Of a stretch of DNA of 64,000 nucleotides, positions 3,566-50,857 are shown one piece after another. This stretch comes from Bacillus sp. es.036. GTDB taxonomy: Bacteria; Bacillota; Bacilli; Bacillales; Guptibacillaceae. Position 1 is the stretch's first letter; the number at the start of each line of letters is the position of its first letter. The DNA lies in NCBI RefSeq assembly GCF_002563635.1, contig NZ_PDIZ01000001.1, positions 372,001 to 436,000 of the forward strand, given 5' to 3'. Below the pieces are notes generated by a model. It made no database searches. It was not told the origin of the DNA and saw only the letters and a list, made by a program, of their open reading frames with translations. Both the position numbers and the translations under genes were made by a program.

Positions 3566-3657
3566 TTTAGCCAAAAAAATAAGAATTTAGCCAATATAAT
3601 TCGTTATTGGCCAATAAAAATGAAGTTTGGCCAATATCTCATCATTTTGGCCAAGAA
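3566..3657. repeat. 20-bp tandem repeat array 1 (TTWGCCAA type)
   Basis: Five units of about 20 bp, each opening with TTTAGCCAA or TTGGCCAA. Units 1, 3 and 5 continue with A-rich tails (AAAAAA, TAAAAA, GAAAGA) and units 2 and 4 with TATA or TATC, giving a 40-bp higher-order period. Unlike the later arrays it has no AGAATSATTCT palindrome in front. It lies between the GNAT terminator and the vmlR-like promoter. Confidence 0.75.
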
Positions 3658-3707
3658 AGAGTGGGTCACTCGAATCATTAAGTTTAAAATCAGGCCCAAT
3701 CCTCTTG

Positions 3708-4044: not shown

Positions 4045-5757
4045 ATGGCTCGAGTGATACAAGTGAAAGAACTGCAGAAAAGTTTTGGCGAACGGGAAAT
4101 TTTAAGTGACGTTAGCTTTGAGATACGAAATGGTGAAAAGATTGGTTTAGTCGGCTGGAATGGTGCTGGAAAATCAACACTCGTCAATATTCTGATGAAA
4201 AGGATTGAACCAGATAAAGGTTCTGTGACTATGCCCGATCTAAACATTGGCTATTTGCCTCAATCAACAGATAATCACCTGGCTGTTGATGCTGAACTTT
4301 TCGGGGAAAGGTTACTGGAACAAAGTAAGAAGCTAGGGTTTCAGAAAGAGCGATGGGGGCAAGAGAATCTACAACATTTAAGTGGCGGCGAAAAACTGAA
4401 ATTGTCTTTAGCGAAGATCTGGGCGAGTTCTCCCGAATTTTTGATCTTAGATGAACCAACGAATCACTTGGATATGCAGGGAGTTAAATGGCTTAGTGAA
4501 GAAGTGAGGAGTTATTCAGGTGCTGCCCTCATCATTTCACATGATCGCTATTTTTTAGATGAAACTGTGACAAAGATATTTGAATTGGAATCTGGAAAAT
4601 TAACAATCTACGAAGGAAATTACTCGTTCTATCGAAACGAAAAACAGAGAAGATATGAACAGAAAAAGCGTGATTATGAAAAGCAGCAGCGTAAAGTTGA
4701 AATGATTGAACAGCAAATCTCCACGTTGAAAGATTGGTCAGCTAAGGGCCATCGTGAAGCGGGAAAAGGTGGATCCAATTCTGAGAATCGGCAAATGGGA
4801 TTGCGGGAATTCGAACGAGCGAAGGCAAAGAAAAAGGATAACCAAATAAAATCGAAGCTGAAACGGTTAAATCTAGAGCTTAAGAAAGATGGAGTCAAAA
4901 AGCCGAAAGAAGAGAATACGGTCTCTTTTCAGTTTGAATCAGCGTCCAAACGTGGGAAACGAGTTCTCGAAGCCAAAGGAATCAAGAAGAAGTTTGGGGA
5001 TCGCCTGCTTTTTGATAAAAGTCACTTTTACATCAAACATGGTGATCGGATTGGACTGATTGGCTCCAATGGGGCAGGAAAAACAACCTTTATTAAACTC
5101 CTTCTTGAGCAAGAAAAGCTTACGAAAGGTTCGCTTTGGATAAGTGAATCGACAAAAGTGGCTTACCTTTCACAAGATGTAACTGACCTACCAGGTCAAA
5201 AAACACCGTTGGACTACCTTGATTTAACGAATCGACAGCAGGAAACAAAAGCGAGAACGCTTCTGTCCAATATGGGCATTTCTCAAGAGATTCTAGGGAA
5301 ACCCATTTCTCAATTGAGTCTAGGAGAACGAACGAGAATAAAGCTAATTCATATGATTTTGATGGATTATGACTTCTTAATCCTGGATGAACCGACAAAC
5401 CATCTCGATTTGCCAAGCCGAGAAGAGCTAGAAAGAACGCTAAGTACGTATACAGGTACGCTGTTGATCGTTTCACACGACAGGTACTTAATTGAAAAAC
5501 TGTGTACAAAATTATTAGTTATTGAAAATGGGCAAATGAAGCGGGTTGAGGTAGGCATTAAGGAATATGAGGAAAAACAAAAGAAGAAGGTGACAGGAAG
5601 CGAAAATGTAAGGGGAGAATTAGCCGTCGTTGAGACCAAAATGACAGAACTCTTAGGCAAAATCAGTTACTTTTCAGTGGGGACGGAGGAATATGAATCG
5701 ATCGATAAAGAGCTAATGAAGTTGATGGATTTGAAAAGAAAATTGAATAACATATGA
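4045..5757 (+). CDS. vmlR: VmlR-type ABC-F ribosome protection ATPase
   Basis: 570 residues from ATG 4045, which has AAGAGGTG 7 nt upstream; GTG 4036 overlaps that site and is unlikely. Two ABC domains are present: Walker A GWNGAGKST, signature LSGGE and DEPTNHLD in the first, then GSNGAGKTT, LSLGE and DEPTNHLDLPSRE in the second. The interdomain linker is long, charged and basic (SAKGHREAGKGG...LREFERAKAKKKDNQIKSKLKRL), as in antibiotic-resistance ABC-F proteins that reach into the ribosomal P/E site. There are no membrane segments. The C-terminal extension ending in a LLGKISYFSV-type helix and the order of blocks closely follow B. subtilis VmlR, which confers resistance to lincosamides, streptogramin A and pleuromutilins. 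The attenuator leader supports drug-inducible expression. The exact drug range cannot be read from sequence. Confidence 0.85.
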   Translation: MARVIQVKELQKSFGEREILSDVSFEIRNGEKIGLVGWNGAGKSTLVNILMKRIEPDKGSVTMPDLNIGYLPQSTDNHLAVDAELFGERLLEQSKKLGFQKERWGQENLQHLSGGEKLKLSLAKIWASSPEFLILDEPTNHLDMQGVKWLSEEVRSYSGAALIISHDRYFLDETVTKIFELESGKLTIYEGNYSFYRNEKQRRYEQKKRDYEKQQRKVEMIEQQISTLKDWSAKGHREAGKGGSNSENRQMGLREFERAKAKKKDNQIKSKLKRLNLELKKDGVKKPKEENTVSFQFESASKRGKRVLEAKGIKKKFGDRLLFDKSHFYIKHGDRIGLIGSNGAGKTTFIKLLLEQEKLTKGSLWISESTKVAYLSQDVTDLPGQKTPLDYLDLTNRQQETKARTLLSNMGISQEILGKPISQLSLGERTRIKLIHMILMDYDFLILDEPTNHLDLPSREELERTLSTYTGTLLIVSHDRYLIEKLCTKLLVIENGQMKRVEVGIKEYEEKQKKKVTGSENVRGELAVVETKMTELLGKISYFSVGTEEYESIDKELMKLMDLKRKLNNI

Positions 5758-9262: not shown

Positions 9263-10798
9263 CTAATTACGTATGACGACATATGGCCTCATCATTTCAT
9301 AATCTTCGTGTTCTAATAGATGACAGTGCCATACAAACAAGCCTGCATAAGGTGCAAACTTCATAATGATGCGCGTGATTTCATTTGGATTTGCCTGGAC
9401 GGTATCTTTCCAACCGCATTCATTCTCTTTCGGTTTCTTACGTGGTCCCGTTGGCACAATGATCCCTTTTTGATCATATAAGTTCTTGTCAAAAGGCTGG
9501 CGATCAAGAATTTGAAAACGAATAAGATGTAGATGAATAGGGTGAGTATTATTCGTGATATTAACAAGACTCCAAATTTCCACGTCACCTAATCTAGGCT
9601 TTTCGGTGATTGGATCAGACCAGAGCTGATTGTTTAATAGATGAAGGGATCGATTGTACGAATCGTTTCTCATGTTAAGTAGAAGGTTTCGTTGATTGTT
9701 TGCCTGGTGCTCGTTCATTGTCTCAAACTTTCCCAAGGAGCCTGGTATGACACTTTTCTCTTCATGAGAGAGTTCTTCTTTTACGCGAAATTGCATAATA
9801 ACCCCGGTGGTTTTAGAATTCGGCAACTTTCCATTTGGATAGGATGAGGGAGCATCATTGGTTAAGGTGATCACCTCTCCACTAGAACGACTGAAGTCCA
9901 CCACGACGTCCACACGTTCTGCAGGAGCGACCAAAACGCGGGTGACAGGCACCGGACGTGGTAATAACCCTTGATCTGTACCAATTTGAGTGAAAGGAAC
10001 GCCGTTTGAAAGAGCGAGACGGTAGAATCGAGCATTTGCGCCATTCAGAATGCGAAACCGATACTTGCGGGGTTCCACTTCTAAATAGGGCCATACCTTT
10101 CCATTTACAAGGTTCACCTTTCCAAAAAACTCTCCAATAACAGAGGGCGAGACACCTGGTACAGGGGGGTTAGGCTCTGAGGGATAATACAAAGAACCAT
10201 CTTGATGAAACGAGCGATCTTGAATAATGAGCGGAAGATCAAACGGACCGTTCGGTAAACCGATTGATCGTTCTTCCTCATCATGAATGATATACATTCC
10301 GGCAAGTCCGGCATAGATATTCAAGCGGGTGATCCCCATTGCATGATCGTGATACCAGAGGTTCGTTGCAGCTTGACGATTCGGATATTCATAAACAGGG
10401 TTGGTGAAAAAGGGACCGCGTTGCTGAAACCCCTTTGTAAACCAAGCTTCTGGATAGCCATCGCTCGTATCAGGTGTAGAGCCTCCATGAAGATGTACGA
10501 CTGTACGAACGTCCGGGACATCTACACTAGCCCCATGAACGGTGTGATCAATCGGAAGGAAATGCCTGGTGGGAAGGTCGTTTTTCCAGAGAACACGAAT
10601 AGGCTGATCTCGAAAGACGTGAAATGTTGGACCGGGAAATATCCCGTTATATCCCCAAATCCGAGTTGGTGGCAAATCTCGATGAAGCTTTTGCATGGTT
10701 TCTCTCATTGTCACTTCGTAGAAGGGGATGCCATTGGTGGTTTTAAGTGGTTGAATGGTCGGGATGATGGGGAGTCGATCCACAAACTTTTCGAGCAT
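9263..10798 (-). CDS. cotA: CotA-type spore coat multicopper oxidase (laccase)
   Basis: 511 residues from the ATG at 10798, which has AAAGGAG about 8 nt upstream; the frame also holds an ATG at 10816 that overlaps this site. All four copper motifs are visible in order: HLHGG (about residue 101), WYHDHA, HPIHLHL and HCHLLEHEDYEM, the last carrying the type-1 His, Cys and axial Met ligands. The N-terminus LEKFVDRLPIIPT and the block LHRDLPPTRIWGYNGIFPGPT closely follow B. subtilis CotA (513 aa), an outer-coat laccase that makes the brown spore pigment and protects against UV and peroxide. There is no signal peptide, as expected for a coat protein made in the mother cell. Confidence 0.93.
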   Translation of the reverse strand: MLEKFVDRLPIIPTIQPLKTTNGIPFYEVTMRETMQKLHRDLPPTRIWGYNGIFPGPTFHVFRDQPIRVLWKNDLPTRHFLPIDHTVHGASVDVPDVRTVVHLHGGSTPDTSDGYPEAWFTKGFQQRGPFFTNPVYEYPNRQAATNLWYHDHAMGITRLNIYAGLAGMYIIHDEEERSIGLPNGPFDLPLIIQDRSFHQDGSLYYPSEPNPPVPGVSPSVIGEFFGKVNLVNGKVWPYLEVEPRKYRFRILNGANARFYRLALSNGVPFTQIGTDQGLLPRPVPVTRVLVAPAERVDVVVDFSRSSGEVITLTNDAPSSYPNGKLPNSKTTGVIMQFRVKEELSHEEKSVIPGSLGKFETMNEHQANNQRNLLLNMRNDSYNRSLHLLNNQLWSDPITEKPRLGDVEIWSLVNITNNTHPIHLHLIRFQILDRQPFDKNLYDQKGIIVPTGPRKKPKENECGWKDTVQANPNEITRIIMKFAPYAGLFVWHCHLLEHEDYEMMRPYVVIRN

Positions 10799-33943: not shown

Positions 33944-33966
33944 GCTGCGGGATGCTTCTGTTTGGA

Positions 33967-34076
33967 AGAATGATTCTCGTTAGCCAATAAAAGTCGAATT
34001 TGGCCAATATATGTGGGATTTAGCCAATAAAATTAGAAATTAGCCAATAAATCAGGATTTTGGTCAATAAAGAAGG
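33967..34076. repeat. 20-bp tandem repeat array 2 with palindrome leader
   Basis: The palindrome AGAATGATTCT (33967-33977) is followed by two bases and five 20-bp units beginning TTAGCCAATAAAA, TTGGCCAATATA, TTAGCCAATAAAA, TTAGCCAATAAA and TTGGTCAATAAA. It lies between the orphan terminator and the aspA promoter region. Confidence 0.85.
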
Positions 34077-34194
34077 GGTTCACCTTATCGATCGTTTATA
34101 CTATTATTTATCATGGACGAATCATTGAAGCTCAGGAGATTGATCATGACAGTTCGATAGATTAGAGGACGAAGAATAAGAAGGAGAAGTTATC

Positions 34195-35625
34195 ATGCCG
34201 ACAACTATGAACAACACAAGAATGGAATCTGATTTTTTAGGAGAAAAGGAAGTACCGATTGAAGCCTATTATGGCATTCAAACGCTACGCGCCGTAGAGA
34301 ATTTTCCGATTACGGGCTACCGCATTCATGAAGAATTGATTAAAGGATTCGCGATGGTGAAGAAAGCGGCGGCGCTTGCCAACATGGAAGTGAAGCATCT
34401 GTATTCTGGCATCGGAAATGCGATCGTCGAAGCAGCGGACGAATTGCTGGAAGGAAAGATGCACGATCACATCATTGTCGATCCCATCCAGGGAGGGGCT
34501 GGCACTTCGATCAACATGAACGTGAACGAGGTGATCGCAAACCGCGCGATTGAATTGTTAGGAGAAGAAAAAGGGAACTACATTGTTTGTAGTCCGAATA
34601 CGCATGTGAACATGTCGCAGTCCACAAACGATTCGTTTCCAACTGCCATTCACCTCTCCGTTTTAAATATGATGGAGCAACTACTAAGCACAATGGAAGA
34701 CATGCATGCGGTTTTCGAACAAAAAGCCGAAGAGTTTAACCATATTATTAAAATGGGGCGTACCCATCTTCAAGATGCCGTACCGATTCGACTTGGACAA
34801 GAGTTTCAAGCATACAGCCGCGTGATCGCACGAGATATAAAGCGAATCAAACAATCCCGTCAGCATTTGTATGAACTGAACATGGGCGCAACCGCGGTTG
34901 GCACCGGGCTAAATGCAGATCCGCGCTATATTGAATTCGTCGTAAAAGAACTTGCTGACATTAGCGGTTTACCGCTTGTTGGGGCGGAAGACATGGTTGA
35001 CGCGACGCAAAATACCGACGCATATACGGAAGTTTCCGGTGCGTTAAAAGTGTGCATGATGAACATGTCAAAAATCGCGAATGACCTGCGCTTAATGGCG
35101 TCAGGACCACGAGCAGGATTGGGCGAAATCAGCTTGCCTGCAAGACAACCCGGCTCTTCGATCATGCCAGGTAAAGTGAATCCAGTACTACCTGAAGTGA
35201 TTAACCAGGTTGCTTTCCAGGTGATCGGAAACGACAACACCATCTGCCTCGCTTCAGAAGCAGGGCAGCTCGAGTTAAACGTCATGGAGCCAGTGCTTAT
35301 TTTCAATCTGCTTCAATCGCTTAGCATTATGAAAAACACGTTCCGTACGTTTACAGACAACTGCTTAAAAGGCATTGAAGCGAATGAAGATCGTCTCAAT
35401 GAATACGTGGAAAAAAGCGTTGGCGTTCTAACTGCCGTAAACCCGCATATCGGATATGAAGTAGCGGCGCGAATCGCGAGAGAAGCGATCCTAAGCGGTG
35501 CCTCGATTCGCGAGCTTTGCATAAAGTATGATGTGCTGACAGAAGAAGAACTGAACTTAATTCTAGATCCTTATGAGATGACGCATCCAGGAATTGCTGG
35601 CGTGTCGTTGTTTGAGCGGGAGTAG
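34195..35625 (+). CDS. aspA: Aspartate ammonia-lyase
   Basis: 476 residues, AGAAGGAG site before ATG. It shows the fumarase/aspartase family blocks: YYGIQTLRAVENFPITG, NVNEVIANRA, SPNTHVNMSQSTNDSFPTA, GRTHLQDAVPIRLGQEF, and the flexible catalytic loop GSSIMPGKVNPVLPEV with its active serine. The TxxRAxxNFPITG start separates aspartase from fumarase and argininosuccinate lyase. It converts L-aspartate to fumarate and ammonia. It is not preceded by an asparaginase gene here, unlike the ansAB operon of B. subtilis. A perfect terminator follows. Confidence 0.93.
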   Translation: MPTTMNNTRMESDFLGEKEVPIEAYYGIQTLRAVENFPITGYRIHEELIKGFAMVKKAAALANMEVKHLYSGIGNAIVEAADELLEGKMHDHIIVDPIQGGAGTSINMNVNEVIANRAIELLGEEKGNYIVCSPNTHVNMSQSTNDSFPTAIHLSVLNMMEQLLSTMEDMHAVFEQKAEEFNHIIKMGRTHLQDAVPIRLGQEFQAYSRVIARDIKRIKQSRQHLYELNMGATAVGTGLNADPRYIEFVVKELADISGLPLVGAEDMVDATQNTDAYTEVSGALKVCMMNMSKIANDLRLMASGPRAGLGEISLPARQPGSSIMPGKVNPVLPEVINQVAFQVIGNDNTICLASEAGQLELNVMEPVLIFNLLQSLSIMKNTFRTFTDNCLKGIEANEDRLNEYVEKSVGVLTAVNPHIGYEVAARIAREAILSGASIRELCIKYDVLTEEELNLILDPYEMTHPGIAGVSLFERE

Positions 35626-35636
35626 TCGTAATTGTA

Positions 35637-35677
35637 AAGCCGCCCTTCGTTGGTAAGCGAAGGGCGGCTTTTTTTGT
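35637..35677 (+). terminator. Strong terminator after aspA
   Basis: AAGCCGCCCTTCG pairs with CGAAGGGCGGCTT and ends in a run of seven T. Confidence 0.92.
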
Positions 35678-35732
35678 GCATGAAGAGGTTCGTTATGAGA
35701 GGTGGCCAGGGCTGTTAGCTCCTGTCGACGTT

Positions 35733-35840
35733 AGAATCATTCTTGTTAGCTAATAAAAGTTGAGTTTGGCCAATATATTCTGGATTTAGCCAATAAAAAA
35801 CGATCTTGGTTTATATAATCGAAATCTAGCCAATAAAGCG
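35733..35840. repeat. 20-bp tandem repeat array 3 with palindrome leader
   Basis: AGAATCATTCT (35733-35743), then five 20-bp units alternating AATAAAA and AATATA tails; unit 4 is degenerate (TTGGTTTATATA). It lies between the aspA terminator and the operator of the beta-glucoside operon. Confidence 0.85.
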
Positions 35841-35866
35841 AGAGGTCCTCAGTCCCGCAACCCATA

Positions 35867-35888
35867 TTAAGGAAACCGGTTTACTAAA
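35867..35888 (+). promoter_or_regulatory. LacI-type operator O1 of the beta-glucoside operon
   Basis: Centred on AAACCGGTTT at 35877/35878 and flanked by TTAAGG and ACTAAA. Its flanks match the reverse complement of O2, with centres exactly 126 bp apart. It lies 48 nt upstream of the promoter -35. Confidence 0.75.
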
Positions 35889-35925
35889 AACTACTTCAAA
35901 AATTAGAAAACTCCCACATTTACCA

Positions 35926-35954
35926 TTGAAATCGGATACATTATGTGGTTTAAT
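35926..35954 (+). promoter_or_regulatory. Sigma-A promoter of the beta-glucoside operon
   Basis: TTGAAA (35926-35931) and TTTAAT (35949-35954), 17 nt apart, between the two operators. Confidence 0.6.
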
Positions 35955-35992
35955 CATAACTAACGAACCATTCCGGCTATTTTTTTTGCTGG

Positions 35993-36014
35993 TTTACGAA
36001 ACCGGTTTCCTTAA
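35993..36014 (+). promoter_or_regulatory. LacI-type operator O2
   Basis: Centred on AAACCGGTTT at 36003/36004, within GAAACCGGTTTC. It lies downstream of the promoter, within the transcribed leader, so a bound repressor would block transcription. The core also resembles a CcpA cre site. Confidence 0.75.
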
Positions 36015-36063
36015 CTTGTTTTGTTCATCTATGGGTCTATCATTTTATTGGAGGGGATATAGG

Positions 36064-37338
36064 ATGAAAGGTAAAAAGAAATTTCTTTCCGTATTGTTGC
36101 TAAGTACAGCTTTAGTATTAGCTGCTTGTAACGGGGGCGGAGATGAGTCATCTGGAGATGGCAAAGTGAAATTGAACTTTTGGACATTTGGGGCGACAAA
36201 TTATGATTCTCTAGCGGAAGAATATATGAAAGAAAATCCGGATGTTGAGATTAATGTAAAAACGTCTGAGCTAGGCGATCACCATAACAGCTTATTTACA
36301 TCGATTTCTGCAGGTACGGGCGCTCCGGATCTTGCGATGATCGAAGTGGATCAGCTTGATCGTTACCGTGAAGCGCAGGAGAGATTTGTGAACCTGTATG
36401 ATCTTGGAGCAGATGAAGTGCAAGGCGATTACCTTGATTGGAAATGGAATATGGCAGAGAGTACAGATGGCGACTTCTTATTCGGACTTCCAACAGATAT
36501 CGGTCCGAAAGCGATGTATTACAACGTTGATGTTTTTGAAGAAGCAAACTTACCAACTGAACCAGAGAAAGTAAAAGAAATGATTTCCTCACCTGCTCAA
36601 TTTGCAGACGCTGCGAAAACGGTGCTTGATGAAACAGGCAAACCAATGGTTGATAGCATGGAAATGGCTTACCGCGCCAACATGGATGCTTTAGAGAAAA
36701 GTTACTTCAATGAGAAAGATGAGCTGATCATTGGCAAGGAAGGCAATGAAGTAAAAGACGCTTATGACTACGCTGTGTCTCTTTATGAAAAGGGTTACGT
36801 AGGAAATTATGAAATGTGGACGCCTGAATGGGCAACGGCTCTTAACAAAGGTGACTTTGCCGTCGAAATGGCGCCAGCGTGGTTGAAAGGCTACATGACA
36901 GAAAATGCTCCAGAAGGAAAAGGCAACTGGCGCGTATCAACACTACCAAGTGAGTTCGCTGGTAACTGGGGTGGATCTTACGTCACGATCCCGGCAGAAA
37001 CAGAGCATAGTGAAGAAGCATATGAGTTTGCAAAATGGCTCGTTTCTCCTGAAAACCAGTTGAAATCATTCGAAGAGAGCGGACTTTTCCCTTCTGCGCC
37101 ATCCGTGTACGAAATGGACGAGTTTGTGAATAACGAAGACGAATACTTCGGTGGTCAAAATACAGCGGCTACTTTTGCGGAAGCAGCGAAAGAAATTCCA
37201 GCTGTCTACAAAGGACCAAAATACGTAACAGTTAATGATGAAGTACTGACTGCTCTAAGGAACGTACAAGAAGGCGCTGACCCTGAGAAAGAATGGAAAG
37301 ATGCGGTTAAGCGTATCGAGGGCTTAGTGAAACGATAA
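36064..37338 (+). CDS. Sugar ABC transporter substrate-binding lipoprotein
   Basis: 424 residues from ATG 36064 (GGAGGGGATAT upstream); the frame is open further back but that part covers the promoter and operator. The signal MKGKKKFLSVLLLSTALVLAAC has a clear lipobox with cysteine 22. The mature protein has the family-1 sugar-binding pattern: VKLNFWTFGATNYDSLAEEY, GAPDLAMIEVDQLDRY, FGLPTDIGPKAMYYNVDVFEEANLP and GNWGGSYVTIPAETEHSEEAYEFAKWLVSPENQ. With the two permeases behind it and a GH1 glucosidase in the cluster, it probably captures cellobiose or another beta-glucoside outside the membrane. Confidence 0.9.
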   Translation: MKGKKKFLSVLLLSTALVLAACNGGGDESSGDGKVKLNFWTFGATNYDSLAEEYMKENPDVEINVKTSELGDHHNSLFTSISAGTGAPDLAMIEVDQLDRYREAQERFVNLYDLGADEVQGDYLDWKWNMAESTDGDFLFGLPTDIGPKAMYYNVDVFEEANLPTEPEKVKEMISSPAQFADAAKTVLDETGKPMVDSMEMAYRANMDALEKSYFNEKDELIIGKEGNEVKDAYDYAVSLYEKGYVGNYEMWTPEWATALNKGDFAVEMAPAWLKGYMTENAPEGKGNWRVSTLPSEFAGNWGGSYVTIPAETEHSEEAYEFAKWLVSPENQLKSFEESGLFPSAPSVYEMDEFVNNEDEYFGGQNTAATFAEAAKEIPAVYKGPKYVTVNDEVLTALRNVQEGADPEKEWKDAVKRIEGLVKR

Positions 37339-37407
37339 ACAGAAAGCTGCTTAAAGGCTGGCGGGGGAAAACTCTTCCGGCCTTTAACTTTGGAGGAGGT
37401 TAAGGCT

Positions 37408-38361
37408 TTGGAGGATGTGCAAAAGCAAGCAAAAGCTCGGAAGAAAATCAAAACTAGTAAACTGTCTGAAAAGAAGAAAGACATGATTTCAGGCTATCTC
37501 TATGTTGCACCATTCTTTATTGTGTTTGGGATTATTGGGTTATATCCAGCTCTGTTCAGTATTGTCCTAGCTTTTCAAGAGTGGAACGGGCTTGGTGAGA
37601 TGGAGTTTGTTGGACTTAGTAACTTTGCAGTCGTTTTACAAGATCCATTATTTTGGAAGTCTTTATATAACACGGTCATCATCGGGTTAATGGGAACGGC
37701 CCCGCAGTTAATTGTCGGGATTGTTCTCGCTTATTTCCTAAATCTCGCTGTGATCCGTTTCACTAATTTCTTCAGGGTAACGATTTTTATGCCATACATC
37801 ACGTCGATGGTTGCCGTTGCTCTCGTGTTTGGGGTTTTCTTTAGTAGTAATGAAACGGCGCTTGCGAACTACGTGATTGGCTTGTTCGGCGTTGATCCGG
37901 TGAGCTGGAAAACGTCTGAATGGGGAGCGAAAATTGCGATTGCGCTCATGGTATTCTGGCGCTGGGTCGGCTATAATACGATCATTTATCTTGCTGGTCT
38001 ACAAAGTATTTCGAAGGATCTGTATGAAGCGGCTACCATTGATGGAGCGAACAAGCTCGAGCAGTTTATCTACATTACGATTCCATTATTGAAGCCATTC
38101 ATTATTCTAACGGTATTTATGTCGACTGTTGGTGCGCTGCAATTATTCGCAGAACCAACCGTGTTCTTAGGCTCATCCGCATTCAGTCGTGATGAAGCGA
38201 TGACAGTGGTGATGTACTTGTACCGTGATGCCTTTAACCTTGGCTCATTCGGAACAGCATCCGCTACGGCAGTATTGTTGCTTATTATCATTATCGGTGC
38301 TGCAGCGATCAATACGTGGTTAACATCTGGCATTGGCAGCAAGAAGAAGAGAGGAGTGTAA
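37408..38361 (+). CDS. Sugar ABC transporter permease (MalF type)
   Basis: 317 residues from TTG 37408, chosen because GGAGGAGG lies 8 nt upstream; TTG 37390 overlaps that site. A lysine-rich N-terminus precedes six membrane segments, and the EAA loop DLYEAATIDGANKLEQFIYITIPLLKPF (about residues 206-232) contacts the ATPase. No ATPase gene lies in the cluster, so a shared MsmX-like ATPase elsewhere in the genome is expected, as usual for family-1 sugar importers of Bacillus. Co-transcribed with the binding protein and the next permease. Confidence 0.9.
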   Translation: MEDVQKQAKARKKIKTSKLSEKKKDMISGYLYVAPFFIVFGIIGLYPALFSIVLAFQEWNGLGEMEFVGLSNFAVVLQDPLFWKSLYNTVIIGLMGTAPQLIVGIVLAYFLNLAVIRFTNFFRVTIFMPYITSMVAVALVFGVFFSSNETALANYVIGLFGVDPVSWKTSEWGAKIAIALMVFWRWVGYNTIIYLAGLQSISKDLYEAATIDGANKLEQFIYITIPLLKPFIILTVFMSTVGALQLFAEPTVFLGSSAFSRDEAMTVVMYLYRDAFNLGSFGTASATAVLLLIIIIGAAAINTWLTSGIGSKKKRGV

Positions 38362-38364
38362 GGG

Positions 38365-39201
38365 ATGAAAAAAAGAAAAAATCAATCAAAAGCAGGCACG
38401 TTACCGATTTATCTTATCCTGGGATTTACCTCTCTCTTTTCTCTGTTCCCATTTTACTGGATGTTCGTCATGGCGACGCAGCCGAGTGCGGCGTATAACT
38501 CCATTCCACCGACGCTACTACCTGGTGGAAAGCTAGTCGAGAACTTCCAGAAGGTACTGGATACGATTCCGTTTTTCCAGGCGATGTGGAATACTGTCTT
38601 GCTATGTACAGTCGTAACCGTAGCGGTTTTACTGATCAGTTCATTAGCAGGATTTGCGTTTGCGAAATTCCAGTTCCCAGGTAAAAACTTTTTGTTCATC
38701 TTAATTCTGTTAACAATGGTTATTCCGCCTCAGCTGGGATTGATTCCACAGTACTATCTCATTTCTCAGCTCGGCTGGCTTGATACATTGATGGGTGCAG
38801 GAATCTTATTCCTACTAAATCCACTCGGAATTTTCCTAATGCGTCAATATATTAGCGAATCCGTACCTGACGAATTAATGGAAGCGGCAAAGCTTGATGG
38901 GTGTTCGAACTTTAGAATTTATTGGAGTATCGTCATTCCGATTATCAAGCCTGCTTTTGCGACACTCGGAATTATTGTCTTTACGTTAGTTTGGGGAGAA
39001 TTCCTATGGCAGTTCACCGTTTTGCGTGATCCTTCTTCTTATACGCTACAGGTGGCGCTTGCTTCTCTAAACAATGCTTTCCGAGTCGATTTCGGAATGT
39101 TACTTTCAGGCGTGTTCTGGGCAACGGTTCCATTGATCATTATTTTCCTTATTTTCAACAAGTGGTTTATTTCGAGCATTACGGAAGGATCTGTTAAATA
39201 A
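38365..39201 (+). CDS. Sugar ABC transporter permease (MalG type)
   Basis: 278 residues, ATG 3 nt after the previous stop, with AGAGGAGTGTAAGGG upstream. Six predicted membrane segments and the EAA motif ELMEAAKLDGCSNFRIYWSIVIPIIKPAFAT (about residues 171-200). It pairs with the MalF-type permease to form the channel of the beta-glucoside importer. The gene for the regulator begins about 75 nt downstream. Confidence 0.9.
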   Translation: MKKRKNQSKAGTLPIYLILGFTSLFSLFPFYWMFVMATQPSAAYNSIPPTLLPGGKLVENFQKVLDTIPFFQAMWNTVLLCTVVTVAVLLISSLAGFAFAKFQFPGKNFLFILILLTMVIPPQLGLIPQYYLISQLGWLDTLMGAGILFLLNPLGIFLMRQYISESVPDELMEAAKLDGCSNFRIYWSIVIPIIKPAFATLGIIVFTLVWGEFLWQFTVLRDPSSYTLQVALASLNNAFRVDFGMLLSGVFWATVPLIIIFLIFNKWFISSITEGSVK

Positions 39202-39276
39202 TCGGCTGTCTCTCCCCCGTATTTTGATACAATAAAATGAGAATACGTTAGCGATGTTGCTAAGGAGATGAACGCG

Positions 39277-40290
39277 ATGAATTTAACGATTAGAGATATT
39301 GCTAGAATGGCTGGGGTTTCTCCAGCAACTGTATCAAAAATTATGAACAACTACGACGGGATCAGTGAGGCCACTCGTCAGAAAGTATATAAAATCATTG
39401 AAGACACAAAATACCAGCCGACTTTTTCAGCGAAATCGCTGGCTACGAAGAAATCGAACTTAATTGGGTTAATCTACGCGGGGAAAATCAACGTCGATTT
39501 CAAACACCCTTTCTTTAATGAAGTGATGAATACATTTAAGAAAGCAGTGGGGGCTCTCGGATATGATCTCCTTCTGTTTTCGAATGAAAAGTTCTATCAA
39601 GGTGAAAGCAAATACCTGGAGCGATGTAGGCATTTCCATGTCGATGGCTGCCTGATCGTTGCGGGGGATGAAATTGAAGCGGCGGTTCATGAAATCGCGC
39701 AAAGTGAGATTCCGTGTATTGGCATCGATTTAAAATTAGAAGGACCAAAATCCAGCTATATCATGACGGATAATGCCAAGATTGGTATGAAAGTCGTTGA
39801 GAATTTCTATTTAAATAAAGTAAAAAAGGTCGCGTACATTGGTGGGAAACAAGATTCGCTTATTTCGGGGATTCGAAATGAAGGATTCATGGATGCGATG
39901 AAGCAGTTCGGTCTGCCGTTGAATGAAAAGTGGATTCACTATGGCGATTTCTTCGAGGATAGTGGGTACCACGCGATGATCAAGATTCTTCAGGACGATG
40001 AACGTCCTGAAGCCGTGTTCGCTGCTTCTGACATGATGGCGCTCGGTGCGTTGAAAGCATTGAAGGAGCACGGCATCAAAGTTCCGGAAGATATGCAACT
40101 AATCGGCTGTGATGACATTGAATCTTGTCGCTATAGCGATCCCCCTCTTACGACCGTGAAACAGGACAAACAAAAGTTAGGAAAGCTCGCAGCCTACATG
40201 CTGGATGATTTAATACAAGGAAACGAAGAGATCCATCCAGTGAAAGTGGACCCTGAACTTGTGATTCGATCATCTAGTATAGAAAGGTAA
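39277..40290 (+). CDS. LacI-family transcriptional regulator of the beta-glucoside cluster
   Basis: 337 residues from ATG 39277 (AAGGAG 9 nt upstream); ATG 39268 abuts the ribosome site. The N-terminal helix-turn-helix LTIRDIARMAGVSPATVSKIMNN and the hinge YQPTFSAKSLATKKSNLIGLIY are typical LacI/GalR. The periplasmic-binding-protein-like sensor domain has DGCLIVAGDEIE and FAASDMMALGALKALKEHGIKVPEDMQLIGCDD. The AAACCGGTTT operators flanking the operon promoter are the natural targets, and a glucoside the likely inducer; both are inferences from position. Confidence 0.88.
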   Translation: MNLTIRDIARMAGVSPATVSKIMNNYDGISEATRQKVYKIIEDTKYQPTFSAKSLATKKSNLIGLIYAGKINVDFKHPFFNEVMNTFKKAVGALGYDLLLFSNEKFYQGESKYLERCRHFHVDGCLIVAGDEIEAAVHEIAQSEIPCIGIDLKLEGPKSSYIMTDNAKIGMKVVENFYLNKVKKVAYIGGKQDSLISGIRNEGFMDAMKQFGLPLNEKWIHYGDFFEDSGYHAMIKILQDDERPEAVFAASDMMALGALKALKEHGIKVPEDMQLIGCDDIESCRYSDPPLTTVKQDKQKLGKLAAYMLDDLIQGNEEIHPVKVDPELVIRSSSIER

Positions 40291-40319
40291 GAGGGCTCCG
40301 ACTACAGGAGGCTACCAAC

Positions 40320-41663
40320 ATGACAACAATTCAATTTCCAGAAACGCTGAAATGGGGCGCAGCAACCGCTTCTTATCAAATCGAAGGCGCAGCGAATGAA
40401 GATGGCCGTTCGCCGTCCATTTGGGACACGTTCTCCCATGCGCCAGGGAACGTAAAAAATGGCGATCATGGAGACGAAGCATGCAACAGCTATCATCTCT
40501 ATAAAGAAGACGTGCAGCATCTGAAGAAGTTAGGCGTAGACCTTTACCGCTTCTCCATTGCCTGGCCACGGGTTATGCCTGAAGGAAGAGGCGAGCTGAA
40601 TCCGAAGGGAGTGGCTTACTACCAAAACTTGATCGATGAGCTGATTGAAAATGGCATTGAACCAATGATCACTCTTTATCACTGGGATCTTCCTCAAGTG
40701 CTCCAGGATAAAGGCGGCTGGGAGAACCGTGACACGATTGATGCGTTTAACGAGTATGCGGTCGCAATGTTTAAAGAGTTTGGCGACAAAGTATCGAAGT
40801 GGATTACGATCAACGAACCGTGGTGTGCTTCATTCCTATCAAACTACTTAGGCGCACACGCACCTGGTAAAACGGATCTACAAGCGGGCGTCGACGTCGC
40901 ACACCATCTGATGCTTGCGCACGGAAAAGCCGTGAAATCCTTCAGAGAGCTTTTACCAGAAGGTGAAATCGGCTATGCCCCTAACACAGGATGGCTCGAG
41001 CCATTCAGTAACAAACAAGAAGATATCGACGCCTGTAAGCGAGCGATGATGTGGCAGAAGGAATGGTTCATGGATCCTGTCTTTAAAGGATCGTATCCAG
41101 AAACATTGATTACGATCTTTGAAAACCACAATGCGAAGCTAAAGCTTGAAGACGGCGACCTTGAACTCATTTCACAGCCGATCGATTTCATGGGCATTAA
41201 CTATTACACTGGTAGTCTCGGACGGTATAAAGAAGGCGAAGGGCTTTTTGAAGTAGAGGAAATTCCATTAGACTATCGAAAGACTGATATCGACTGGCCA
41301 ATCTATGCAGACGGTTTCTATAACGTCTTAACCGACCTTCACGAAACGTATGGTGATGTGCCGATCTATATTACAGAAAACGGTGCTTGCTATAACCATG
41401 AAGTAGAAGATGGAAGAGTGCATGATCAGGAACGGATCGATTACTTAAAGCAGCATTTAACTTCCTTACACCGTGCCATTGAATCCGGTGTGCCAATCAA
41501 AGGCTACATCGTTTGGTCACTGCTCGATAACTTCGAGTGGGCATTTGGCTACGAAAAGCGCTTCGGTATCATTCATGTGAACTATCGTACGTTTGAGCGC
41601 ACGCCAAAGGACAGCTATTATTGGTATCGCCAGACGATTACGAATGGGTGGTTTGAGGTTTAA
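40320..41663 (+). CDS. Family GH1 beta-glucosidase
   Basis: 447 residues, the usual length of bacterial GH1 enzymes, with ACAGGAGG before ATG. The acid/base glutamate is in TINEPW (about residue 165) and the nucleophile glutamate in YITENGA (about residue 353). The N-terminus FPETLKWGAATASYQIEGAANEDGRSPSIWDTFSHAPG and the C-terminal WSLLDNFEWAFGYEKRFG are canonical. No phosphate-binding lysine/tyrosine block of 6-phospho-glucosidases is evident, in keeping with uptake by an ABC system rather than a PTS. It hydrolyses imported cellobiose-type sugars in the cytoplasm. Confidence 0.92.
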   Translation: MTTIQFPETLKWGAATASYQIEGAANEDGRSPSIWDTFSHAPGNVKNGDHGDEACNSYHLYKEDVQHLKKLGVDLYRFSIAWPRVMPEGRGELNPKGVAYYQNLIDELIENGIEPMITLYHWDLPQVLQDKGGWENRDTIDAFNEYAVAMFKEFGDKVSKWITINEPWCASFLSNYLGAHAPGKTDLQAGVDVAHHLMLAHGKAVKSFRELLPEGEIGYAPNTGWLEPFSNKQEDIDACKRAMMWQKEWFMDPVFKGSYPETLITIFENHNAKLKLEDGDLELISQPIDFMGINYYTGSLGRYKEGEGLFEVEEIPLDYRKTDIDWPIYADGFYNVLTDLHETYGDVPIYITENGACYNHEVEDGRVHDQERIDYLKQHLTSLHRAIESGVPIKGYIVWSLLDNFEWAFGYEKRFGIIHVNYRTFERTPKDSYYWYRQTITNGWFEV

Positions 41664-41735
41664 GAGGTTAAGGTTTGAAGCTTGAGATGAGAGCAGGACT
41701 CGCCGCGGGTGCGAGGGATTTTGCTCAGTCATGAA

Positions 41736-41780
41736 CAACCAGGCAGGGGTACACGTTTTGTGTGAACTGCCTGGTTTTGT
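41736..41780 (+). terminator. Terminator of the beta-glucoside operon
   Basis: AACCAGGCAG pairs with CTGCCTGGTT around a 20-nt loop; T-rich sequence follows. Confidence 0.85.
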
Positions 41781-41867
41781 TTTTTTTATTTGAGGGTGCG
41801 GATTGTGTTTGGAGCGGTTTAGAGGTGATGGGTAGTGTGCTGGCAGTTGTTCGGTGGTCTGGGAATT

Positions 41868-41975
41868 AGAATGATTCTCGTTAGCCAATAAAATTCGATT
41901 TAGGCCAAAATAATTTCGTTTTGGACAATAAAAATGAGATTTGGCTAATATCATGAGAATTTGGCCAATAAATCG
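41868..41975. repeat. 20-bp tandem repeat array 4 with palindrome leader
   Basis: AGAATGATTCT (41868-41878), then five units (TTAGCCAATAAAA, TAGGCCAAAATAA, TTGGACAATAAAA, TTGGCTAATATC, TTGGCCAATAAA). It lies between the glucosidase terminator and the osmoprotectant operon. Confidence 0.85.
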
Positions 41976-42106
41976 TGTTTCTCCCGCTGCATGAGGCCGG
42001 ATTTGCTCATTTCACCGAGCGTTTCAAGCAGGTAAGCATCGAAAATCTGCAGAAATCCACTGCCCAAACCGAAGATCGAGCAAAAAACATAAGCTAAAGG
42101 AGTCTA

Positions 42107-42146
42107 ATCGACACCATTCGCCATATAACGGGTGGTGACAGTCACC
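42107..42146 (+). repeat. 40-bp dispersed repeat, copy 3
   Basis: ATCGACA, two bases, ATTCGCC, six bases, CGGGTGGTGACAGTCACC. Here the end forms the perfect palindrome GGTGACAGTCACC. It lies 101 nt before the start of the osmoprotectant operon. Confidence 0.75.
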
Positions 42147-42247
42147 ATTTCTGCACTTTCCTGTGTGAAAGCGCCAAAAACCGGAAGGACTATGTTACCA
42201 TTAATATTGTTGTGTTTTAGGAATAAAAAGGACAGGGAGGTGTAATT

Positions 42248-42901
42248 TTGGAAAAATGGATGAAGTTTCTTGAAGTAAATTCTTCTCGCATTTTTGATTT
42301 GACGATTGAGCACGCCATTTTAGTAGGGTTAGCTATTCTAGTAGCGCTCCTCATTGGTGTACCGCTAGGAATCTATTTAACGACAAATGACTATCTGGCC
42401 GAAACAGTTCTACAGATTGCGTCTGTTATGTTAACGATTCCAAGTATTGCGTTATTTGGTGTTATGATTCCTGTCTTCTCGATCGTAAATCAGGGGATCG
42501 GGTTTGTACCAGCTTTCGTGGCATTGGTTCTCTATGCCCAGCTACCGATTATTCGGAATACATACACCGCGATTCGTAACGTTAATCCTCAAATGAGGGA
42601 TGCTGCAATTGGGCTCGGGATGAAGCCCATCCAACGTTTGTTTCGAGTAGAGATTCCAAATGCGTTTCCAGTGATTATGGCTGGTATTCGCACCGCTGTT
42701 GTCATCAATATTGGCATCGGCGTCATCGCTGCTTATATCGGAGCGGGTGGTCTTGGCGTATTAATTACGCAAGGCATCTCACGAGGAGATAACTATTTGA
42801 TCATTACTGGCTCGGTTGCTGTTGCAATTCTAGCTATGATTGCTGATGGCATCTTACTATGGATTCAAAAACGGTACACACCGAAGAGCATTGCTAATTA
42901 A
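42248..42901 (+). CDS. OpuC-type osmoprotectant ABC permease (1)
   Basis: 217 residues, TTG start with AGGGAGGTG 7 nt upstream. About five membrane segments and the conserved cytoplasmic loop NPQMRDAAIGLGMKPIQRLFRVEIPNAFPVIMAGIRTAVV (about residues 116-152), typical of OpuCB/OpuBB permeases for glycine betaine, carnitine or choline. First gene of a four-gene operon in the order permease, ATPase, permease, binding protein. The substrate range cannot be read from the permease. Confidence 0.87.
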   Translation: MEKWMKFLEVNSSRIFDLTIEHAILVGLAILVALLIGVPLGIYLTTNDYLAETVLQIASVMLTIPSIALFGVMIPVFSIVNQGIGFVPAFVALVLYAQLPIIRNTYTAIRNVNPQMRDAAIGLGMKPIQRLFRVEIPNAFPVIMAGIRTAVVINIGIGVIAAYIGAGGLGVLITQGISRGDNYLIITGSVAVAILAMIADGILLWIQKRYTPKSIAN

Positions 42902-42917
42902 GGAGTGAGGTGTAGGG

Positions 42918-43913
42918 ATGATTACGTTTGACAAAACAACGAAAACATACGAAGGCAATGTCACCGCCGTCAAAGGGGTAGATTTTACTGTAGAAAAAGG
43001 TGAAATTGTGGTTCTGTTAGGCCCATCCGGCTGCGGAAAAACGACATTGCTCCGAATGGTTAACCGACTTGAAACGATATCAGATGGGAAAATCACGATT
43101 GATGGACAAGATTCTATGTCACTAAACCAAACGGCCTTAAGAAGAAAAATTGGCTACGTGATCCAAAGCAATGGCTTGTTCCCGAACATGACAATTGAAG
43201 AGAATACGATGATCGTTCCGGATCTCTTAGGCTGGAGCAAGAAGGATAAGAAAGAGCGGTTCCACAAGCTCATGGAGATGATTGGATTAAGCGGAGAGAA
43301 ATTTGGAAAGCGTTATCCGCATGAGCTTTCCGGAGGGCAGCAGCAGCGCATCGGAGTTATCCGCGCATTAGCGGCAGATCCCCCAGTTATGCTCATGGAC
43401 GAACCTTTTGGAGCGCTTGATCCGATTATCCGTGAAAAAATTCAGGACGAATTTTTGCAAATTCAACAGGAAGTAAAGAAAACGATTTTGTTTGTCAGTC
43501 ACGATATAGACGAAGCGATCAAAATGGCCGATAAAATTGTGCTTCTTCGTGGTGGAGAGCTGATGCAATATGACACGCCTTCCGAAATGCTGGTCCGTCC
43601 TAAGAATGAATTCGTTCGAGAGTTCTTTGGAAAAGACAGGGCTATTAAAAGCTTAAGTTTACATACAATCCAGGACCTTAGAGAAATGATTGGTCTTGCG
43701 GAATTTGATGATGCGATTGCTGACACAAAGACGATTAATGTAAACCATGATCTCCGAAACACCTTATCCATGTTACTGAACCAGGAAGCGGATCAGGTGA
43801 TTGTAAGTGATAATGACGGAAAGAAGCTCGGTGCGATCACGATTGATATTGTTCAGAAATACCTTCATTACGAAATCAAAGCAAAACCAGCCCCAGTTCT
43901 AGAGGGGGTATAA
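42918..43913 (+). CDS. OpuC-type osmoprotectant ABC ATPase
   Basis: 331 residues, GGAGTGAGG upstream of ATG. Walker A GPSGCGKTT (about residue 36), Q-loop QSNGLFPNMT, signature LSGGQQQR, Walker B VMLMDEPFGALDP and the switch histidine in FVSHDIDEA. The C-terminal 90 residues hold a single CBS-like module (VNHDLRNTLSMLLNQEADQVIVSDNDGKKLGAITIDIVQKYL), the ionic-strength or nucleotide-sensing type found in OpuCA/OpuA ATPases, which often have two. Next gene begins 1 nt after the stop. Confidence 0.9.
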   Translation: MITFDKTTKTYEGNVTAVKGVDFTVEKGEIVVLLGPSGCGKTTLLRMVNRLETISDGKITIDGQDSMSLNQTALRRKIGYVIQSNGLFPNMTIEENTMIVPDLLGWSKKDKKERFHKLMEMIGLSGEKFGKRYPHELSGGQQQRIGVIRALAADPPVMLMDEPFGALDPIIREKIQDEFLQIQQEVKKTILFVSHDIDEAIKMADKIVLLRGGELMQYDTPSEMLVRPKNEFVREFFGKDRAIKSLSLHTIQDLREMIGLAEFDDAIADTKTINVNHDLRNTLSMLLNQEADQVIVSDNDGKKLGAITIDIVQKYLHYEIKAKPAPVLEGV

Positions 43914-43914
43914 C

Positions 43915-44652
43915 ATGAATAAGAAGAGGGTTATTAGTCTTGTTGTACGCTATTCCGTATATGGGCTGGTCGCGTTGTTCTTCTTTTGGGCGATCCGTAA
44001 CCACTATTTTGATTACATTTTTACAGAATCCACAACATTTTGGCATTTAGTTAAACAGCACTTACAGCTTGTTCTTGTTTCATCGGTGCTTGCCTTACTC
44101 ATTGCCATACCTGGTGGAATTCTCGTTACACGGAAGCCATTTAGACGAGCGGAGTGGGTTGTCTCAAATACCGTAAACCTCGGTCAAACGATTCCCAGTC
44201 TTGCCGTGCTAGCTCTGATGATCAGTATTCTTGGAATTGGGTTTCAAACAGCCGTATTTGCCCTGTTTATCTATTCACTTCTGCCGATGTATCGAAATAC
44301 TGTCGCCGGAATTGATTCCATTGATGAAAATTTAATTGATGCAGCGAGAGGAATGGGGATGAAGCCCATCCAAATTCTTTTCAGAATCGAATTACCGAAT
44401 GCAGCCTACTCCATCTTAGCTGGGGTTCGAACAGCGATCGTTTTAAATATCGGAACGGCTGCGCTTGCTTATGTCGTCGGTGGAGGCGGTCTTGGGGTAT
44501 GGATTTTCACTGGCATTCAGCTGTTTGATAATGGCTACTTAATTTCCGGTGCGATCCCTGTTACGCTACTCGCCATTTTTGTCGACTATTTGCTTCGACT
44601 TCTCGAGCGTCTAATCGTTCCTGAAGGGTCAAAACCGTCACAAGAATTGTAA
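43915..44652 (+). CDS. OpuC-type osmoprotectant ABC permease (2)
   Basis: 245 residues, AGAGGGGGT upstream. Membrane segments at about residues 10-27, 45-65, 77-110 and near the C-terminus, with the ATPase-contact loop DENLIDAARGMGMKPIQILFRIELPNAAYSILAGVRTAIV. It shares the MGMKPIQ-LFR-E-PNA core with the first permease of the operon, so they are paralogous halves of a heterodimeric channel. Confidence 0.88.
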   Translation: MNKKRVISLVVRYSVYGLVALFFFWAIRNHYFDYIFTESTTFWHLVKQHLQLVLVSSVLALLIAIPGGILVTRKPFRRAEWVVSNTVNLGQTIPSLAVLALMISILGIGFQTAVFALFIYSLLPMYRNTVAGIDSIDENLIDAARGMGMKPIQILFRIELPNAAYSILAGVRTAIVLNIGTAALAYVVGGGGLGVWIFTGIQLFDNGYLISGAIPVTLLAIFVDYLLRLLERLIVPEGSKPSQEL

Positions 44653-44671
44653 TGTGTTAGGAGGTGTTGAT

Positions 44672-45583
44672 GTGAAAAGTAAGATACTTAGTGGAATCAT
44701 CATCGTTATGATCTTAACGATGATAACATCCTGCTCAACGGTTGGAATTGGCGGGAAGCCAATTTCTGTTGGTGGGAAGAACTATACCGAACAGTACTTG
44801 CTCTCAGAAATGACTGCTTTCCTTCTTGAGGATGCCGGTTATGATGTGAAGCAAATGAATAATTTGAGTAGTACCGTTGTGCGTAAAGCCCTAGAGAATG
44901 AGCAGGTCGACTTAATGTGGGAATACACGGGTACGGCGCTTCTTACCTACATGGGGCAGGATACCATCGCTGATCCTGAAAAAGCGTTTCAGCGGGTAAA
45001 AGAAATTGATGGGAAAGAAAATGATATCCATTGGATGAACATGTCTAACGTAAACAACACGTACGCGCTCGCCATGAGAGAAGAACAGGCGAAAGAGTTA
45101 GGGATTCAATCCATCAGTGATCTCGCAGCTTATATGAATGATCATCCTGGCGAGCTTTCCATTGCCTCTGACGCCGAGTTTGCGAACCGTCCCGATGGCA
45201 TTCCTGGGGTAGAAAAAACGTACGGATTTAAGTTCGATACAAATCAAATCAATCAGATGGACATTGGATTAACACAACGAGCATTAGACAATGGCGATGT
45301 TGACATATCGGTCGCTTTTGAAACCGATCCCACCATTGTCGAATATAACTTAATTACGCTCAAGGATGACAAGAATTTCTTTCCTCCTTATACAGCAGCA
45401 GTGACAATTAATGAAGACGTCTATGAAAAATATCCAGAAGTAAAAGAAATCACAAAACCACTTGCTGAACAGCTAAACAGCGACATCATGCGAGAATTAA
45501 ACTACAAGGTAGACATTGAAGGAAACAGTGTCTCTGTCGTTGCGTATGATTGGCTTGTGGAGAATGGGTTATTGGAAGAGTAA
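44672..45583 (+). CDS. Osmoprotectant-binding lipoprotein (OpuCC type)
   Basis: 303 residues from GTG 44672 (TTAGGAGGTG upstream). The lipoprotein signal ends at TSC (about residue 22). The mature domain begins ISVGGKNYTEQYLLSEMTAFLLEDAGYDV, with VDLMWEYTGTALLTYMGQD and DIGLTQRALDNGDVDISVAFETDPTI, the pattern of the OpuAC/ProX-like quaternary-amine binding proteins. With its two permeases and ATPase it forms a complete importer for compatible solutes such as glycine betaine, carnitine or choline. Confidence 0.88.
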   Translation: MKSKILSGIIIVMILTMITSCSTVGIGGKPISVGGKNYTEQYLLSEMTAFLLEDAGYDVKQMNNLSSTVVRKALENEQVDLMWEYTGTALLTYMGQDTIADPEKAFQRVKEIDGKENDIHWMNMSNVNNTYALAMREEQAKELGIQSISDLAAYMNDHPGELSIASDAEFANRPDGIPGVEKTYGFKFDTNQINQMDIGLTQRALDNGDVDISVAFETDPTIVEYNLITLKDDKNFFPPYTAAVTINEDVYEKYPEVKEITKPLAEQLNSDIMRELNYKVDIEGNSVSVVAYDWLVENGLLEE

Positions 45584-45587
45584 ACAT

Positions 45588-45630
45588 AAAGGCCTTTCCC
45601 TCAGTGTAATGAGGAGAAAGGCTTTTTTTA
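45588..45630 (+). terminator. Terminator of the osmoprotectant operon
   Basis: AAAGGCCTTTCCCTC pairs with GAGGAGAAAGGCTTT and is followed by a T run. Confidence 0.8.
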
Positions 45631-45771
45631 TGTAGAAAGAAGTTTCTACTGGTGAACAAAGAAGTCTGCTATTTCAATGATTTTTTTCATTAGAAAGCGA
45701 GGTTTCCCTTGAAAGTAAAGCAAGGAAGACTTTGTACGGACACACATGCCTGCCGTTCGTGTGCCGCGGTT

Positions 45772-45840
45772 AGAATGATTCTAGTTAGCTAATAAAAGTG
45801 GAGTTTGGACAATATATCTGGAATTTGGCTAATAAAGTGT
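45772..45840. repeat. 20-bp tandem repeat array 5 with palindrome leader (three units)
   Basis: AGAATGATTCT (45772-45782), then TTAGCTAATAAAA, TTGGACAATATA and TTGGCTAATAAA units. It is the shortest of the five arrays and lies between the osmoprotectant operon and the SDR gene. Confidence 0.8.
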
Positions 45841-50838: not shown

Positions 50839-50857
50839 GCGGGTGACAGGCACCCGC
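50839..50857. repeat. GGGTGACAGGCACCC hairpin, related to the 40-bp repeat
   Basis: GCGGGTG and CACCCGC around ACAGG. It shares GGGTGACAGGCAC with the 40-bp repeats but lacks their ATCGACA half. No T run, so a poor terminator. Confidence 0.55.

Follow-up and report, generated by a model that had tools for sequence, protein, structure and literature searches.

Repeat arrays in the window

The window, a 64,000-nucleotide stretch of the genome of Bacillus sp. es.036 (contig NZ_PDIZ01000001.1, positions 372,001 to 436,000), carries five arrays of a 20-bp direct repeat, all on the plus strand. A first-pass annotation had listed five such arrays of three to five units apiece, and they are indeed where it placed them, with first units starting at 3567, 33980, 35746, 41881, and 45785. 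The start positions that it gave for the last four (33967, 35733, 41868, and 45772) are early, as they fall inside a 15-bp header, TTAGAATSATTCTNG, that abuts unit 1 in four of the five arrays and contains an 11-bp inverted repeat, AGAATSATTCT.

Array 1 (3567..3658) has five cores, at 3567, 3587, 3607, 3627, and 3647, every one 20 bp from the next, and sits between an acetyltransferase-like open reading frame (ORF; 3032-3523) and the ORF of an ABC-F protein (4036-5757). This ABC-F protein is of the ribosomal-protection type. Array 2 (33980..34071; five cores, at 33980, 34000, 34020, 34040, and 34060) lies upstream of aspA (34195-35625), behind an imperfect version of the header, GAAGAATGATTCTCG, at 33965..33979. 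Beyond aspA and a terminator-like hairpin comes array 3 (35746..35837; header TTAGAATCATTCTTG at 35731..35745), with five units, at 35746, 35766, 35786, 35806 (degenerate), and 35826, followed by the gene for a sugar-type ABC solute-binding protein. Ahead of the sugar-type ABC operon, at 35870-36010, are two inverted AAACCGGTTT-type palindromes, which are probable operators, and the operon encodes a LacI-family regulator at 39268-40290. Array 4 (41881..41972; header TTAGAATGATTCTCG at 41866..41880; five units, at 41881, 41901, 41921, 41941, and 41961) is preceded by a GH1 beta-glucosidase gene and a terminator-like hairpin, with a glycine-betaine-type ABC operon downstream. That operon (42248-45583) has a paralogue at G000:C1:365197-368530, the two being 77% identical at the DNA level. 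Array 5 (45785..45836; header TTAGAATGATTCTAG at 45770..45784) has three units, at 45785, 45805, and 45825, and lies with the ABC operon on one side and an SDR oxidoreductase gene on the other.

Could such arrays arise by chance? The motif TTRGCCAA has 22 matches on the two strands of the window against 4.45 expected, a count that none of 100 shuffles equaled (palindromic matches being scored twice in window and shuffles alike), and 21 of the 22 fall inside the five arrays. The arrays are real and far above chance. Rfam covariance models gave no match in the window at gathering score. Another short repeat, GGTGACAGNCACC, has three copies in the window (9941-9953, 42134-42146, and 50842-50854) where 0 are expected. 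It belongs to a longer repeat (in related loci, similar to TTCGACAAATAGCGGGTGGTGACAGGCACC) that trails some of the arrays lacking a header and looks like a repetitive extragenic palindrome (REP).

Occurrence in the genome and genus

The repeat had been suggested to exist perhaps in related genomes, and it recurs both there and throughout its own. A two-unit pattern with two mismatches allowed has 61 matches in the 4.34-Mb, three-contig genome of es.036, and the reversed control has none. These matches define 21 sites. Those at C1 315 kb and 2899 kb are doubtful, which leaves about 19 that are convincing; at 11 sites there are exactly five 20-bp units. In a sample of 61 genomes, the same pattern with one mismatch is found in 13 of 14 members of the genus, Pseudalkalibacillus (es.036 included), versus none of 47 from other genera. 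The named array carriers comprise Pseudalkalibacillus species as well as relatives that go by older or provisional names; their membership in the genus was assigned from their names and the shared arrays. Among the best 80 of 99 matching stretches, 56 were assigned to the genus, 2 belong to Thalassobacillus cyri and Bacillus sp. IITD106, and 22 come from unrelated taxa and were treated as chance matches. Because detection of these named loci required two exact units side by side, remnants of one unit and degenerate arrays are undercounted among them.

How many units does an array have? The es.036 genome and the named genus loci together provide 77 distinct arrays of at least three units (shorter ones are omitted from this count and from that of flank directions): 58 have five, 11 have three, 5 have six, and 3 have four. 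Unit number can also differ at the same site. The 51 orthologous array pairs comprise 32 of five and five units, 13 of three and five, 3 of four and five, 2 of five and six, and 1 of three and four. Across the nine genomes compared, the site downstream of aspA has five units in G000, G011, G009, and G004 and three in G005; G007 keeps one unit, flanked by header and tail, G001 and G006 show only traces, and G008 has nothing there. At a different site, the five units of G007 correspond to one in G009. Units are thus gained or lost whole, and five is the usual state.

The position of the sites was followed in the complete genome G007, in which dnaA is at position 22. One chromosome arm holds 16 of its 21 sites, none lies between 1.86 and 3.26 Mb, 11 fall within 400 kb (a clustering reached in none of 20,000 simulations), and the largest empty arc is 1.4 Mb (p 0.012). 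A macrodomain-like distribution was considered but is not clearly supported: the clustering loses significance once neighbors less than 50 kb apart are merged (p 0.11 to 0.22).

Unit structure, spacing, and alternation

The unit consists of TTRGMYAATAWA followed by a variable 7 to 8 bp, and columns 1, 2, 4, and 7 to 10 are nearly invariant. Its opening had been given as TTGGCCAA or TTAGCCAA; both are present, yet they are not the sole forms, the genus-wide opening being TTRGMYAATA with TTAGCTAA, TTGGCTAA, and TTGGACAA as further variants. The fifth core has no conserved linker after it; the element therefore comprises four linkers between five cores and measures about 92 bp. Self-complementary cores make up 190 of 350 units (TTGGCC in 155 and TTAGCT in 35), but the palindrome is not the key feature it had been taken for: within the genus, TTGGCCAA is but one core variant among several, and what other genera share is the asymmetric GCYAATA. 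For that reason the unit was rejected as a single symmetric operator, and the sites are read as head-to-tail.

The spacing is best judged from intervals counted free of register, using the relaxed core T[TC]NGHYAATA in es.036 and the named genus loci. Of 228 intervals between 19 and 22 bp, 225 are 20 bp, two are 21, one is 22, and none is 19; a further 15 are of 40 or 60 bp. Adding the ortholog loci brings the tally to 295 of 20 bp, three of 21, one of 22, and one of 19. The 57 five-unit arrays that were aligned (the 58 at hand without that of locus L080) also line up gap-free across 100 columns, which is partly a product of their having been gathered on a 20-bp register and makes the register-free count the fairer test. 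The suggested phasing at two helical turns therefore stands, with signs of selection described below.

Alternation with a 40-bp period had been proposed as well. Across 58 arrays, a unit resembles the next but one more closely than the next (0.691 versus 0.657), a difference as high in none of 2,000 permutations; the strict order of AATAAA and AATATA units (A-T-A-T-A) is found in just 15 of the 58. The alternation is thus real but partial and, like the spacing, better than chance when the arrays are aligned.

Might the repeats act in RNA, with paired TTRGCYAA units forming hairpins in the 3′ untranslated region? The units are able to pair, many header-less arrays sit just past a stop codon, and some single arrays fold better than their shuffles (z of -5.3 for 3567-3666 on the minus strand; -3.5 and -3.0 for L149), although 33980-34079 on the plus strand, the worst of eight folded, has a z of +0.5. 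Comparison across the 57 arrays makes the idea very improbable: 88.7% of cells pair versus a shuffled mean of 89.1%, the covariation score is below that of shuffles, RNAalifold gives no consensus pair, and of 232 adjacent-unit positions at which a stem would require A-U or G-C, 57 set an A against a C. Nor is the orientation of the arrays fixed relative to transcription. Hairpins between units were rejected on covariation, good single folds being possible for any partly self-complementary repeat.

A second structural possibility is that the arrays are intrinsically curved and that the bend produced by their phased A/T stretches is itself the function, with no specific protein involved. Predicted curvature is 87 degrees per 100 bp compared with 42 in shuffles (De Santis table). 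Set against arrays with permuted columns, which keep the 20-bp period, the excess is not significant (p 0.14 with De Santis, 0.07 with Bolshoy), so curvature was dropped as independent support. Other genera are mixed in this respect, and more core letters are conserved than curvature requires, which leaves this the most improbable of the explanations weighed.

Placement relative to genes

Arrays are intergenic, with 2 of 84 inside ORFs of at least 150 amino acids. Gaps between convergent genes make up 20 of 60 array-bearing gaps versus 28 of 240 array-free ones (odds ratio 3.8, p 1.4e-4), and divergent gaps 8 of 60 versus 60 of 240 (p 0.06); gene ends were set by a caller that simply takes the longest ORF, and both p values are too small because the sites are partly shared by related species. 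Of 55 header-less arrays, 23 have a hairpin, defined as a perfect stem of at least 7 bp, in the 50 bp ahead of unit 1, and 1 has it behind the last unit. The corresponding counts are 0 of 18 for header arrays and 52 of 2,190 for random 50-mers. The hairpins before header-less arrays look like intrinsic terminators.

This placement bears on a reading in which a global regulator controls adjacent genes with the arrays as its operators. Some regulators typically have direct repeats at two turns as their sites. In the window, aspA, the ABC operons, and the SDR gene each have a header array upstream; in several species both paralogous glycine-betaine-type operons have an array upstream; and where both flanks were called, 13 of 16 header arrays are followed by a gene start. 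The header's inverted repeat is also of the kind that regulators bind. Against this, the downstream neighbor runs toward the array in 29 of 44 header-less cases with both flanks called, divergent gaps, the places where operators are expected, show no enrichment, and the distance from header array to the next gene start varies from 13 to 408 bp. On balance, this reading is unlikely.

Conservation and copying

If the arrays are bound by a protein, how have their parts changed between species? The answer comes from 32 strict ortholog pairs with both flanks alignable, which are not independent, as several species have the same sites. Divergence is 1.8% in the invariant core columns, 8.9% over core positions 1 to 12, 14.9% in 400-bp flanks, and 29.9% in the linkers. 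In other words, the invariant columns change about 8-fold less than the flanks, the whole core 1.7-fold less, and the linkers twice as much. The core is less diverged than the flank in 30 of 32 pairs and the linker more diverged in 28. At the flank rate (116 indels per 9,606 bases), the arrays of the 32 pairs would be predicted to contain 35.6 indels, 12.4 of them in linkers; substitutions in linkers are frequent, while changes of linker length are not. Together with the interval counts, these divergences argue that core and two-turn spacing are held while the linkers drift.

Recent copying of arrays is rare. A two-unit block at least 95% identical is common to just 2 of 404 within-genome pairs: a pair 1.2 kb apart in L093 (Bacillus sp. 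RAR_GA_16), identical over that block and read as a recent local copy or conversion, and the L079/L080 pair, at 95%. Among 219 pairs of five-unit arrays, a set that excludes the L093 pair (one member being cut by the locus end), the best identity is 89% and the next 83%. A plasmid or phage origin was also considered and set aside: two array queries found no match among 72,556 plasmid records, and one viral contig has a single unit pair, taken as chance.

These results are the main test of the arrays as a selfish or neutral interspersed repeat, one that spread long ago, is tolerated only between genes, and is kept by chance and gene conversion. Several features fit: intergenic 3′ placement like that of REPs and bacterial interspersed mosaic elements (BIMEs), a genus-specific sequence, the gain and loss of whole units, the local copying or conversion just described, and the cluster in G007, which is not significant once merged (p 0.22). 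A repeat of this kind would nevertheless not be expected to combine so few near-identical copies with orthologous cores that change so much less than their flanks, linkers that change more, and spacing maintained despite linker drift; frequent gene conversion would homogenize the linkers as well. The reading is accordingly quite unlikely.

Arrays beyond the genus

Three GCYAATA cores spaced at 19 to 21 bp occur in 28 of 299 genomes of the order, representing 9 of its 116 genera; outside the genus, this amounts to 19 genomes in 8 genera. Outside the order, the pattern was found in 1 of 360 genomes of a class-wide sample of 398. The reversed control pattern also matches, in 15 of the 299 order genomes and in 5 genomes of one family in the class-wide sample. 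These reversed matches are read as a second array type of the same period (ATAATCGAGCACAAATCCAA and relatives), although they may instead be a background of ordinary 20- to 21-bp tandem repeats; single-site matches to the first pattern, such as the six near-identical units of G293, may likewise be ordinary tandem repeats. Kinship of the second type with the first would be a guess from a reframed alignment. Second-type arrays (ATAAYCG core, 20/21 bp) are seen at L196 to L213 in other genera of the order, with one run of about 20 units in G069.

Outside the genus, genera with several sites have versions of their own. That of f47, TCGCCAATAAA, has units of 20 and 21 bp behind an inverted repeat at seven loci; that of f41, GGCTAATAG, is mostly 21 bp; and that of f28, TTTGGCTAATAAA, is 20/21 bp. 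All seven f47 g63 arrays (L177 to L183) start with an inverted repeat near AACTGGAAA..TTTCCAGTT, a second example of a header. Across L154 to L183, which were found with a pattern allowing 19 to 21 bp (22 lies outside it), strict cores are 20 bp apart in 50 cases, 21 in 35, and 19 in none. Of 30 loci in other genera with both flanks called and near-duplicates kept, 11 are convergent, and in Thalassobacillus cyri a five-unit array lies exactly between the two terminator-like hairpins of convergent genes. Greater similarity of a unit to the next but one recurs in four of nine other groups, each with few arrays: IITD106 (permutation p 0.001, three arrays), f41 (0.0035, three), f29 (0.012, two), and f47 (0.024, six). 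In f28 the p value is 0.10, and there is no sign of it in f46, f9, f25, or L193.

Comparison with known systems

Plasmid iterons are head-to-tail direct repeats of about 19 to 22 bp, two helical turns apart and often about five in number. The arrays resemble them in being direct repeats at about two turns, but are chromosomal, with some 20 sites per genome, and no replication initiator is among the neighbors examined in the window (metabolic, transport, acetyltransferase, and ABC-F genes). matS, the site of MatP, parS, and the RacA-binding sites are dispersed chromosome-organizing sites, the known ones being single palindromes rather than arrays. Like them, the arrays have some twenty sites over part of the chromosome and presumably one dedicated protein; unlike matS, they have no clear macrodomain-type distribution in G007. 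The copy number of bacterial minisatellites (variable-number tandem repeats) varies freely, and although the arrays are also tandem units between genes, five units dominate (58 of 77), other numbers occurring too. Clustered regularly interspaced short palindromic repeat (CRISPR) arrays have regular conserved blocks with variable stretches between; here the unit is 20 bp, the variable stretch 7 to 8 bp, and the genome places about 20.

Nearest in placement are the REPs, 20- to 40-bp palindromes tagged GTAG or CGTC that, in PMC3733652, are described at ORF 3′ ends and, with BIMEs, as proposed gyrase targets relieving transcription-induced supercoiling (Moulin et al. 2005 is among the references of that paper). 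Both REPs and the arrays are interspersed and intergenic, at gene 3′ ends. The arrays differ in being direct repeats, usually of five units, with cores more conserved than their flanks, and in having neither the covariation nor the consensus fold of a conserved palindromic stem. REPs are mobilized by a REP-associated tyrosine transposase; of the arrays, recent copies are rare (2 of 404 pairs). The bcr1 element of the Bacillus cereus group, a repeat resembling a miniature inverted-repeat transposable element, is characterized as having mobile-element features (PMC2267715, PMC3733652); its copies are dispersed like the arrays, of which recent copies are rare. The view that no element of this form had been described agrees with literature searches by unit strings and description: among the papers listed, none concerned the arrays to judge by its title or the opening of its abstract, though subscription papers were largely outside these searches and this is no proof. 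A unit string is present once in PMC7584652, a paper on Bacillus alarmones.

What the arrays may do

It is highly probable that these are protein-binding arrays under selection. More specifically, we infer a cooperative, head-to-tail binding array that also serves as a boundary between transcription units, a combined reading to which a probability of about 0.5 is assigned. In this model, the array would be a row of head-to-tail sites with the core GCYAATA (TTRGMYAATA in the genus), all on one face of the DNA because each is two helical turns from the next. A putative sequence-specific host protein would bind cooperatively to adjacent sites, which probably form pairs of two slightly differing kinds, and build a continuous nucleoprotein segment of about 100 bp. 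The arrays stand for the most part at the 3′ ends of genes, and many have convergent neighbors or follow a terminator-like hairpin; from there, the segment would limit read-through and the exchange of supercoils between adjacent transcription units, and it may anchor the chromosome.

Cooperative binding on one face by one protein would yield the three features seen: (i) a conserved asymmetric core, (ii) repeats at two turns, and (iii) linkers that drift at fixed length. The alternation suggests that the repeat of the assembly spans two sites, or four turns, although duplication of unit pairs is another source, and the prevalence of five sites hints that the complex has a defined size. A boundary role is suggested by the array positions, by analogy with the role proposed for REPs at ORF 3′ ends (PMC3733652).

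What speaks against the cooperative boundary array? The genus member G008 retains just one two-unit remnant, so the element is dispensable, and several orthologous sites have just one to three units or traces. The spacing has its exceptions, five among 300 intervals with the ortholog loci included (one of 19 bp, three of 21, and one of 22), and curvature, which a wrapping protein could use, is no higher than in the 20-bp periodic control. The upstream placement of header arrays fits a regulator as well as a boundary, insertions purged elsewhere would alone give intergenic 3′ placement, and to these points must be added the overstated significance of the placement counts.

Beyond the genus, it is conceivable, though doubtful, that Bacillales have a so far unrecognized chromosome-organizing system, in which a rapidly diverging sequence-specific protein would assemble on head-to-tail two-turn arrays with a four-turn (40- to 42-bp) alternation to form boundaries, protein and core coevolving in each genus. 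The better-conserved cores and two-turn spacing, with genus-specific cores across the order, would imply a dedicated DNA-binding protein with a chromosome-wide role, and the five sites with their alternating unit pair would offer a direct handle on its assembly. The arrays could then be a Gram-positive counterpart of the insulator role proposed for REPs and BIMEs.

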